Assembly (NCBI RefSeq): GCF_004216475.1
Contig: NZ_CP022303.1
Span: 4,337,001 to 4,401,000, forward strand
Length of the DNA: 64,000 bases
Direction of reading: 5' to 3'
DNA from: Thalassococcus sp. S3
GTDB lineage: Bacteria > Pseudomonadota > Alphaproteobacteria > Rhodobacterales > Rhodobacteraceae
Part shown: positions 40,788 through 43,230 of the stretch, piece by piece
How the letters are laid out: every line of letters starts with the position of its first letter
Numbering within the stretch: position 1 is the stretch's first letter
Notes under the pieces: model-generated
What the model was told of the DNA's origin: nothing
What the model saw: the letters and a program-made list of their open reading frames with translations, nothing else
Database searches by the model: none
Position numbers and translations under genes: made by a program

Positions 40788-41762
40788 TCACATTCCGTTC
40801 GGCGCCAACAGAACCTTTCCTTTGCGTTCGCCGGCCATGGTGTAAGTCACTGCCTCTGCTATTTCATCAAGGCTGAAATGCCGGTCGATCGGCGCATGGA
40901 GCGTTCCATTGGCCACGGCTTGCGTGAGCGAGCCATAGACCTGCATCCGCTCTTCCTTGCTTGCATTGGAGAACCAGTGGACAAGCCAAAAGCCCCGCAC
41001 CCGGATGTCGTTGAAGATCAGGTTCAGCGCAGGCATCGAGATCGGCTGCATCGACATCGCGCCGTAATTGACCAACGTTCCGCCCTGCTCCAGCGTTTCA
41101 GCGAGGTGACCGAAGGTTTCACCGGCCACCGCATCCAGCGCCAACTTCATCTTGGCCCCGGCGGCCTGCCTCACGCGTTTGGCGAGATCGGGACCATCGA
41201 CCAGAACTGCGTCGGCTCCGACCTCCTCCATCTCTGCCACGGCGCTGTCGCGGCGCACCACGCAGGCCGTCTTGATTCCCTTTGCCTTGGCAAGTTGCAC
41301 GACATAATTGCCGACGGCCGAGTTCGCGGCGGATTGGATCACCCAATCGCCCTCCTTCAAGTCCACGAAGTCGGTCAACAGCAAATGCGCTGTGGCCGGG
41401 TTCACGGTCAGCATGGCAAGCTGGTCCAGATCCCCCTCAGGCATCGCGGCAAGCGTGTGGATATCAGCCACAACTTCGCTCACCCAGGTGCCTGCCCCGG
41501 CTGGCAGCAGGACAAGTTGGCCGACCGCGATGCCGTCCCCGTTCACCTCGGTAACCCGGCCGAGCCCCTCGTTGCCCGCCACTGCAGGCAGATCCGGCAT
41601 GACGCCGTATTGCCCGGCCACCTGAATAACGTCCGATGGGTTGATGGGCGCTCTCAAGACCTCGACCCGCGCCTGCCCGGCTTTGAGCGTAACGGCATCT
41701 TTCTCAAGAACTTCAAGCACCCGCGCAGGGTCGCCGAACTGATGGTAAACGATTTGTTTCAT
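40788..41762 (-). CDS. MDR-superfamily reductase, trans-2-enoyl-CoA reductase-like
   Basis: A 324-residue medium-chain dehydrogenase/reductase without zinc-binding cysteines. APINPSDVIQVAGQYGV, VAGNEGLGRVTEV, VIQSAANSAVGNYVVQLAK (nucleotide site) and RGFWLVHWFSNASKEER resemble mitochondrial enoyl reductase (MECR/ETR) proteins, which use NADPH on trans-2-enoyl thioesters. The substrate is not certain. The gene stands alone. Confidence 0.87.
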   Translation of the reverse strand: MKQIVYHQFGDPARVLEVLEKDAVTLKAGQARVEVLRAPINPSDVIQVAGQYGVMPDLPAVAGNEGLGRVTEVNGDGIAVGQLVLLPAGAGTWVSEVVADIHTLAAMPEGDLDQLAMLTVNPATAHLLLTDFVDLKEGDWVIQSAANSAVGNYVVQLAKAKGIKTACVVRRDSAVAEMEEVGADAVLVDGPDLAKRVRQAAGAKMKLALDAVAGETFGHLAETLEQGGTLVNYGAMSMQPISMPALNLIFNDIRVRGFWLVHWFSNASKEERMQVYGSLTQAVANGTLHAPIDRHFSLDEIAEAVTYTMAGERKGKVLLAPNGM

Positions 41763-41878: not shown

Positions 41879-41956
41879 AAAAAAAGAGGGCCGGACATCT
41901 AAGTCCGGCCCAGTCCAACAGGGAGGTACATGTCAAAACACAGACATGTTGGAATA
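41879..41956 (-). ncRNA. candidate small RNA, copy A, with anti-Shine-Dalgarno linker and terminator
   Basis: On the minus strand: hairpin 1 with a seven-bp stem (41949-41943 with 41934-41928), then the linker ACCTCCCTGTTGGACTG (41927-41911), a nine-bp GC-rich hairpin (41911-41903 with 41896-41888) and TCTTTTTTT. A -10-like TATTTA at 41968-41963 implies a start near 41956 and a transcript of about 78 nt. An FNR-type box is centred about 42 bp upstream of that start. The CCUCCC could pair with ribosome-binding sites. It resembles in idea the CCUCC-motif RNAs of Rhodobacter, but homology is not shown. Confidence 0.5.
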
Positions 41957-41991
41957 GTTCCATAAATAATTGATGTGGCCAATTTGTGTCT

Positions 41992-42005
41992 TTGATCTGA
42001 GTCAA
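41992..42005 (-). promoter_or_regulatory. FNR/Dnr-type box
   Basis: TTGAT-CTGA-GTCAA, one base from the FNR consensus TTGAT-N4-ATCAA and also close to Dnr-type sites. It lies 40 bp after the SnoaL-like stop, and about 42 bp upstream of the inferred start of RNA copy A, which is the class II activator position. Confidence 0.5.
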
Positions 42006-42044
42006 ATGCCCCTGCGCGCTTGTGCGCCTTTCAACTTCAGATAG

Positions 42045-42395
42045 TCAGGCGCCCGGCTCACCGTGACAGGCCGCTGCCCGATAAACACGGCCAGTTTCGT
42101 CAAAGTAAAGCGTTTCAGCAGCCAGAACGCCGCGCTGGTTCACGTAAGTGATCACCATCATATGGTAGCCATGAAATACATCCCTTACCCGAAAGGCCAG
42201 GTCCGGCTGGCGGTCGAGCGCGGCAGCCCAATACTTGCGAAGCGCGGGCTTTCCGATCAACTCCCCCGTCCCGGCAATCGGGACGGCTTTGTTGGACCGA
42301 AAGACAATATCCTCGGTGTAGTGGCTGAGGATCCGATCCAGATCGTGACTGTTCCAGTCCTCTTGCCAGCATTCAGCAAATGACTTGGCATCCAT
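42045..42395 (-). CDS. SnoaL/NTF2-like protein
   Basis: A 116-residue NTF2-fold protein: MDAKSFAECWQEDWNSHDLD, LSHYTEDIVFRSNKAV, GELIGKPALRKYWAAALDR, DVFHGYHMMVITYVNQRG. Members include small hydrolases, isomerases and binding proteins; function here is unknown. It lies between the two sibling RNA elements and may be transcribed from the regulator gene upstream or on its own. Confidence 0.8.
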   Translation of the reverse strand: MDAKSFAECWQEDWNSHDLDRILSHYTEDIVFRSNKAVPIAGTGELIGKPALRKYWAAALDRQPDLAFRVRDVFHGYHMMVITYVNQRGVLAAETLYFDETGRVYRAAACHGEPGA

Positions 42396-42466
42396 CTTGC
42401 GATGCCCCCATAAGGTCAGCGATCATGACCTTATGGGCGTGATCATGCACTCACAACAACCCCGGC

Positions 42467-42534
42467 AAAAAAAGACCCGGCACAAGGCCGGGTCAGTCCA
42501 ACAGGGAGGTGCATGGGGCTTAACCGGCCCATGC
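42467..42534 (-). ncRNA. candidate 3'UTR-derived RNA, copy B, sibling of copy A
   Basis: On the minus strand, ten bases after the CenR-like stop: hairpin 1 with a seven-bp stem (42534-42528 with 42517-42511), the identical linker ACCTCCCTGTTGGACTG (42510-42494), a seven-bp GC hairpin (42493-42487 with 42481-42475) and CTTTTTTT. Both stems differ in sequence from copy A but keep pairing, which points to conserved structure. At least it is the terminator of the regulator gene; it may also be processed into a small RNA. Confidence 0.5.
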
Positions 42535-42543
42535 GGCGGTTCT

Positions 42544-43230
42544 CTACGCAACCAGGCGGTAGCCGCCTGATTCTGTCACCAGCAGACGAGCATTCGAGGG
42601 ATCAGGCTCGATCTTCTGGCGCAGGCGATAGATATGGGTCTCAAGTGTGTGGGTTGTAACCCCTGCATTGTATCCCCACACCTCATGTAGCAAAACATCG
42701 CGCGCGACGACGCCGTCGGTCGAGCGATACAGGAATTTCAGGATGTTGGTTTCCTTCTCGGTCAGCCGAATCTTGCGCTCATCTTCGGTGATCAGCATCT
42801 TCATGGATGGCTTGAACGTGTAGGGCCCCAGAGTGAATACAGCATCCTCGGATTGTTCGTGCTGGCGCAATTGCGCGCGGATCCGGGCCAAAAGGACCGG
42901 AAACTTAAAAGGCTTGGTGACATAGTCATTGGCACCAGCATCCAGACCCAGGATGGTGTCGGCATCGCTGTCATGACCGGTCAGCATCAGGATCGGCGAT
43001 TTCACGCCTTGCTTGCGCATCAGACGGCACAATTCCCGCCCATCCGTATCCGGCAGGCCCACATCCAGAATGATCAGGTCGTAAAGCGCCTCTTTCGCGC
43101 GTTCCATGGCTTCGGCGCCATTGCCTGCTTCGAAGACGTCGAAGTCTTCGGTCATTACCAGTTGCTCACTCAGCGCTTCGCGCAGATCCTCGTCGTCATC
43201 GACAAGCAGAATTTTCTTGAGCTGTGCCAT
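42544..43230 (-). CDS. cenR: OmpR-family response regulator, CenR-like
   Basis: A 228-residue two-domain regulator. The receiver domain has ILLVDDDEDLREAL, the phospho-acceptor in LIILDVGLPDTDGREL (D56) and NDYVTKPFKFPVLLARIRAQ. The winged-helix domain has LTEKETNILKFLYRSTD, VWGYNAGVTTHTLETHI and RLLVTESGGYRLV. The sequence closely recalls CenR, the cell-envelope regulator of alphaproteobacteria; no histidine kinase is adjacent, which also fits CenR. Its 3' UTR holds RNA element B. The symbol is by recollection, not alignment. Confidence 0.85.
   Translation of the reverse strand: MAQLKKILLVDDDEDLREALSEQLVMTEDFDVFEAGNGAEAMERAKEALYDLIILDVGLPDTDGRELCRLMRKQGVKSPILMLTGHDSDADTILGLDAGANDYVTKPFKFPVLLARIRAQLRQHEQSEDAVFTLGPYTFKPSMKMLITEDERKIRLTEKETNILKFLYRSTDGVVARDVLLHEVWGYNAGVTTHTLETHIYRLRQKIEPDPSNARLLVTESGGYRLVA

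Follow-up and report, generated by a model that had tools for sequence, protein, structure and literature searches.

Tandem SorX-type RNA elements downstream of cenR in Thalassococcus sp. S3, the second with a predicted FnrL-type promoter

The closest described relatives of the elements analyzed here are SorX and SorY, two small RNAs (sRNAs) of Rhodobacter sphaeroides; published statements on them are cited from excerpts of the papers. Published accounts present SorX as a stress RNA that arises by processing of the cenR mRNA. It corresponds to RSs2461 (PMC5036791) and is described as a processed sRNA (PMC8625941, PMC6238624), with an RNase E site at its 5′ end, at 2,598,224 (PMC6238624). Both SorX and SorY have been placed under RpoHI/RpoHII (PMC5036791, PMC8307010), and takP is a published target of SorY (PMC6238624). 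A ChIP-seq site for FnrL was reported in the putative promoter of RSs2461, with an effect on this RNA that, according to the excerpt, the authors could not establish (PMC4263372). Traits by which membership in SorX can be judged are the score with Rfam model RF02784, location in the 3′ UTR of cenR (RSP_0847), RNase E processing, Hfq binding and repression of potA.

Two SorX elements downstream of cenR

An earlier note had described two sibling RNA elements on the minus strand of a 64-kb stretch of DNA (64,000 nucleotides, hereafter the window). A search for their 17-nt linker, ACCTCCCTGTTGGACTG, allowing up to three mismatches, recovered it twice in the window, each time without a mismatch and on the minus strand as claimed; shuffled windows gave a mean of 0.08 matches and at most 2. 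The linker indeed lies between a CATG-containing 5′ stem on one side and a terminator with its T run on the other, the terminators of the two copies having 8 and 9 bp (Table 1). Stem bases are unlike in copies 1 and 2, with pairing kept in both. Folding z-scores were −2.6 for copy 1, with 2 of 200 shuffled sequences equally good, and −6.4 for copy 2, with none of 200. The extents first given, 41879-41949 and 42467-42534, were correctly placed except at their 5′ ends: the Rfam matches put the true starts some 7 nt further upstream, and this additional strand seems to belong to the structure. Likewise, the spacing of 600 bp was a near estimate, the repeats lying 583 and 588 nt apart.

Table 1. 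Features of the cenR-SorX locus (positions in the window)
Feature	Position	Strand	Basis or remark
cenR, OmpR-type response regulator	42544..43230	-	Pfam Response_reg and Trans_reg_C
SorX copy 1 (cenR 3′ UTR copy)	42468..42541	-	Rfam RF02784, 73.5 bits
Proposed helix S1, copy 1	42522..42541	-	AACCG 42541-42537 with CGGTT 42526-42522; 5 Watson-Crick pairs
5′ hairpin (S2), copy 1	42511..42534	-	GCATGGG with CCCATGC; folding
Linker (proposed seed), copy 1	42494..42510	-	Exact match
Terminator hairpin and T run, copy 1	42467..42494	-	
SnoaL-like gene between the copies	42045..42395	-	Pfam SnoaL_2, 46.9 bits (cut-off 27)
FNR/FnrL-type box TTGACTCAGATCAA	41992..42005	-	8/8 consensus letters; predicted
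AT-rich ATTATTTAT, possible −10 element of copy 2	41962..41970	-	
SorX copy 2 (copy with FnrL-type box)	41883..41956	-	Rfam RF02784, 61.9 bits
5′ hairpin, copy 2	41928..41949	-	ACATGTC with GACATGT; folding
Linker (proposed seed), copy 2	41911..41927	-	Exact match
Terminator hairpin and T run, copy 2	41881..41911	-	
Quinone oxidoreductase-like gene downstream of copy 2	40788..41762	-	Pfam zinc-binding dehydrogenase

Whether the elements belonged to the CcsR group or were new had been left open. The answer was neither: with Rfam release 15 both exceed the SorX gathering score of 46.6, and the 64-kb window has no other above-gathering match. By this model-based assignment the elements are members of the known SorX family and not a new family. 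Elsewhere in the window genome, a third SorX match (L003) lies exactly at the gathering score, with 46.6 bits for SorX and 59 bits for SorY (cut-off 111), and two weaker ones were found. Among 296 genomes of the family, 283 have SorX matches at E ≤ 0.001 and 237 have matches above gathering.

Copy 1 begins two bases after the stop codon of cenR, inside the 3′ UTR of this gene. The name given to the gene held up: its R. sphaeroides ortholog is 88% identical (G046:C4:2597469-2598152) and adjoins SorX, the Rfam match to which starts at 2598225, and RSP_0847 is named CenR in that species (PMC9275681). The 3′ end of the cenR mRNA is the likely source of the copy 1 sRNA. Copy 2 lies instead after the gene between the copies, 89 nt past its end and on the same strand. 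That this gene is SnoaL-like was borne out by Pfam. By tblastn (1e-5) the gene was recovered only in loci of the window genome itself, many of the loci compared having short flanks; its presence here may reflect a local insertion.

Immediately before the start of this gene, a perfect 12-bp inverted repeat (CCCATAAGGTCA / TGACCTTATGGG, 7-nt loop, 42407-42437) has a folding z-score of −5.5 and is a possible operator or RNA hairpin. The quinone oxidoreductase-like gene matches NCBIfam quinone_pig3 below its cut-off. A similar gene (72% identity over 324 aa; tblastn, L189) lies downstream of another tandem pair, that of genome G132.

An FNR-type box at the cenR-linked copies

A search at E ≤ 1e-60 detected CenR in 123 of 130 genomes. 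We collected the 3 kb downstream of cenR from 120 genomes (two stretches were shorter; G063 and G119 had no useful downstream sequence and were left out) and added the window, giving 121 loci, each from a different genus. Linker and terminator were present in 92 of these, with one copy in 89 and two copies in three, the window (G000) included; the scan accepted either CCTCCC or no more than one mismatch in 13 letters, so that some of the 29 negatives may have divergent copies that it overlooked. In 91 loci the first linker is about 32 to 186 nt past the cenR stop, and in one it is 2058 nt past it. A second set of loci came from a scan of genome contigs; the two samples have species in common and are not independent. 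Absence of the linker from relatives, or its occurrence apart from paired hairpins, would have spoken against the elements as first described; instead, linker, hairpins and terminator recur throughout the family. In one Rhodobacteraceae MAG, three linker copies follow a single cenR (L047 2192-3051).

A perfect TTGA-N6-TCAA box occurs between −130 and −40 of the linker in 28 of 95 cenR-linked copies, compared with a mean of 0.105 and a maximum of 1 in 200 shuffles, and with 5 in 334304 positions of the flanks. In 21 of the 28 it lies at −82 to −74, although the distance to cenR varies. When the 26 copies with a box at −96 to −71 are compared, T, T and A stand in 21, 21 and 18 of them about 29 nt past the box centre, and C stands in 22 about 44 nt past it, at the sRNA 5′ end; the letters between box, TTTA-like element and 5′ end mostly drift. 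Taking TTGAY-N4-RTCAA centred at −41.5 of the start as the criterion, this layout would match a class II FNR promoter from which transcription begins at the 5′ end of the sRNA. At copy 2, where the start would be expected at 41957, the centre of TTGACTCAGATCAA falls 41.5 nt before that position, and the TTTA of ATTATTTAT comes about 5 nt farther downstream than at the other copies with a box. The window genome encodes FnrL (NF045989, 458 bits, cut-off 300).

Presence of the box varies with the position of the copy. A perfect box precedes one of the 17 copies whose linker is less than 65 nt past the cenR stop (G127, at −51) and 27 of the 78 whose linker is 65 nt or more away. Among the matches listed in the genome-contig scan, the box precedes 14 of 44 cenR-linked copies and none of 66 other terminator-bearing copies in the −130 to −40 range. 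In the window, copy 1 is close to cenR and boxless, and copy 2 has the perfect box. The same division, first copy boxless and second copy boxed, is found at the tandem loci of G132, with copies 140 nt apart, and G169, where a 163-aa ORF lies in the roughly 640 nt that separate the copies. At two further tandem loci (G095, G250) no box was seen at either pair. The triple locus L047 and the double locus L086 carry a box at the last copy only, at −49 or −48.

Some boxes have another layout. Those at −48 (L086 6054-6172) and −52 (L090) are unlike the −78 type, those of G127 and G010 are at −51 and −53, and the box at −49 of the third L047 copy leaves too little room for a class II start ahead of the 5′ hairpin of that copy.

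Because 67 of the 95 cenR-linked copies are without a perfect box, FnrL-type control would not be universal. The best box-like site at R. sphaeroides SorX, TTGCGTGAGATCAA, has 7 of 8 letters and is at −109. The motif is also used by other Crp/Fnr regulators, Dnr (PMC5398030) and CrpK (PMC4263372), so that one of these could act at the copy 2 box. The FnrL-SorX link itself is already in print for one species; what the present comparison adds is the conservation of the box and its division between tandem copies.

The most serious alternative to a dedicated promoter is that copy 2 is a processed 3′ UTR fragment of the SnoaL-like mRNA, the box being idle or serving the downstream gene. Its location after a gene on the same strand is reminiscent of SorX after cenR, and SorX is a known processed sRNA (PMC8625941, PMC6238624). 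Nevertheless, both the box and its spacing are seen again at cenR-linked copies that stand alone, no similar SnoaL gene was found in the compared loci of other genomes, and the boxed second copy of G132 follows the first so closely that there is hardly room for a gene. We regard processing from the SnoaL-like mRNA as unlikely.

Covariation in the 5′ domain and relation to SorY

The earlier note had taken the covarying stems as a sign of selected RNA structure, a view that the wider sample upholds. In an alignment of 88 copies, 94.4% of the cells of the 5′ stem are paired, and each of its seven pairs has changes on both sides. The covariation of stem, terminator and helix S1 (see below) is 0.390, versus 0.173 after shuffling and at most 0.115 for slid versions. 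The alignment holds 88 of the 93 exact-core copies, with L218, L235, L259, L269 and the second copy of L258 removed by hand; the copies with linker mismatches (G091, G012) are also outside it. Both elements end genes and have strong terminators, and might in principle be plain terminators with a conserved leader and no trans activity. This we hold to be very improbable, given the two-sided changes in the 5′ hairpin, the 13 linker letters that are exact in 93 of 95 cenR-linked copies (in part an effect of the scan criterion) and the functions already published for SorX and SorY.

The 5′ domain probably has a further helix, S1, in which a 5′ CCCG would pair with CGGG in the loop of the stem to give an H-type pseudoknot with short loops. 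Both strands are unpaired in the Rfam consensus. A 5′ stem was detectable in 93 of 95 copies; among these, S1 has three or more Watson-Crick pairs in 89 and four or more in 68; after swapping of 5′ flanks between genomes, at least four pairs were found in a mean of 41.4 copies and a maximum of 52 (1000 trials, kinship ignored). Pairing types include CCCG:CGGG, CCCC:GGGG, ACCG:CGGT, GCCG:CGGC, TCCG:CGGA and CCCT:AGGG. Among the matches listed in the genome-contig scan, at least three pairs occur in 31 of 34 cenR-linked copies with a stem (43 examined) and in 6 of 22 such non-cenR copies (65 examined); flank swapping within the matches listed for this sample gave no clear drop (25 observed, mean 21.6, maximum 26). 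On MAFFT columns S1 by itself gave a weak signal, its score of 0.201 being reached in 5 of 500 shuffles and comparing with 0.191 for a version slid by −1.

Copy 2 forms at most two S1 pairs and has no GGG in its loop, and it appears to have lost this helix of the pseudoknot. Its UCCA (41953-41950) can pair with UGGA of the linker, leaving CCUCCC in a loop.

The linker and a GC-rich terminator are common to SorX-type and SorY-type RNAs, which differ in the 5′ hairpin. In R. sphaeroides, the locus at 1632636 scores 115 bits with the SorY model (RF02651) and 43.6 bits with that of SorX; the window copies reach 36.7 and 31.1 bits with RF02651, below its cut-off of 111. From these sequence features, we infer that SorX and SorY form a single family of paralogs; Rfam lists no clan for either. 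A weaker-scoring type with TTCCTCCCTGTCAGACTGG and a terminator, found at L004 (G000:C1:2326347-2326412) and L171 with 29.8 and 35 bits, is possibly a third branch.

Linker copies away from cenR can have a different upstream element. Among the matches listed, 65 such copies have a terminator and at least 120 nt of upstream sequence; CTTGA-N14-20-C.TAAAT is found at −67 to −74 in 15 of the 65 and in none of 44 cenR-linked copies, with a shuffle mean of 0.007. This element agrees with the placing of SorY under RpoH in PMC5036791 and PMC8307010. The RpoHI/RpoHII input of SorX is unexplained by the box analysis or by the sequences considered here.

Candidate targets, proposed mechanism and known systems

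As first noted, the CCUCCC-bearing linker is complementary to GGGAGG-type ribosome sites. That the linker would be the pairing region is supported by the ribosome site of takP, the SorY target, in R. sphaeroides, GTCCACAAGGGAGG, where 12 of 14 linker letters can pair; among 17 control sites, all taken from the window genome, the highest value was 11. TakP of R. sphaeroides was recognized from a match to PDB 2hzk over its full length. Among 13 takP-like loci, five paired better than all 17 controls, and the other eight did not exceed the best of these. Matches to takP at E ≤ 1e-100 were present in only 11 of 61 genomes, the window genome not being one of them. Start sites of potA-like genes could not be reliably assigned, and so gave no pairing result.

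The linker complement CCAACAGGGAGG was sought before ATG in 199 genomes. Of 30 loci read, 23 were flagged as the antisense strand of sRNA genes and two more (L319, L324) look antisense by eye, which leaves few real targets. In the window genome, ACAGGGAGG precedes ATG in 17 places. Pfam assigned transport functions to 4 of 9 of the ORFs scanned (a tenth ORF of 55 aa was set aside), compared with 6 of 17 control ORFs behind plain GGGAGG sites (a Rnf-Nqr subunit not counted), drawn from the first 30 of 375 places (L348-L377), 17 of which had an ORF of at least 80 aa. Because the longer complement thus brings no enrichment for transport over these controls, we name no targets in the window genome. 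GGGAGG ribosome sites of this genome often precede transport genes (the 6 of 17 ORFs just given). The SorX family might be a broad transport regulator.

Taken together, we consider it probable that the locus encodes anti-Shine-Dalgarno SorX sRNAs, copy 1 being cut from the cenR mRNA and copy 2 driven by FnrL. The single-stranded linker CCUCCCUGUUGGAC would lie over GGGAGG-type Shine-Dalgarno sites and thereby repress mRNAs. Copy 1 would belong to the cenR transcript and be freed from its 3′ end, in the manner known from R. sphaeroides. Copy 2 would be a tandem duplicate with its own FnrL-activated class II promoter, by which a low-oxygen input would be added to the same regulatory body.

A broader proposal, to which we give somewhat less than even weight, unites SorX and SorY in one Rhodobacteraceae family whose members differ in their inputs. 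A single anti-Shine-Dalgarno body would be served by a heat-shock-sigma-type promoter (SorY), by the mRNA of the envelope regulator cenR and by an FnrL promoter (both SorX), and the latter two inputs would be divided between the tandem copies in the window genome. The 5′ pseudoknot of SorX would guard the seed by keeping GGG off it. If FnrL does act at the conserved promoter, SorX would be oxygen-responsive in many Rhodobacteraceae, in agreement with the published ChIP site of open effect. A tandem pair with one input each would be a natural experiment that separates processing from promoter control, and a common seed would allow SorX and SorY to be studied as one regulon.

Among known systems, the window copies are closest to SorX itself (RF02784, RSs2461), which they resemble in score, position after cenR, 5′ stem, linker and terminator. 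They differ from RSs2461 in being tandem, with copy 2 parted from cenR by a gene, and copy 2 differs further in its perfect FnrL-type box and its lack of S1. SorY (RF02651, RSs1543) has the linker ACCUCCCUGUUGGACU and a GC-rich terminator in common with the window copies, but has a different 5′ hairpin, its own promoter and a location far from cenR.

The CcsR/cuckoo RNAs (CcsR1-4) of the same bacterial group carry the motif CCUCCUCCC in hairpin loops. The idea of a CCUCC anti-Shine-Dalgarno RNA is common to both, but we reject membership of the window elements as hardly credible: they score above gathering for SorX, they lack CCUCCUCCC and have CCUCCC in the linker instead, and no match of that name appears in Rfam, which may hold no such family, up to E = 1. 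Motif, motif position and Rfam assignment all set the two apart.

FnrS of Escherichia coli is an sRNA under an FNR-type box, as copy 2 would be if driven by FnrL, and the excerpt of PMC4263372 states that it has no sequence similarity to RSs2461. An FnrL-driven SorX would nonetheless have a role like that of FnrS.
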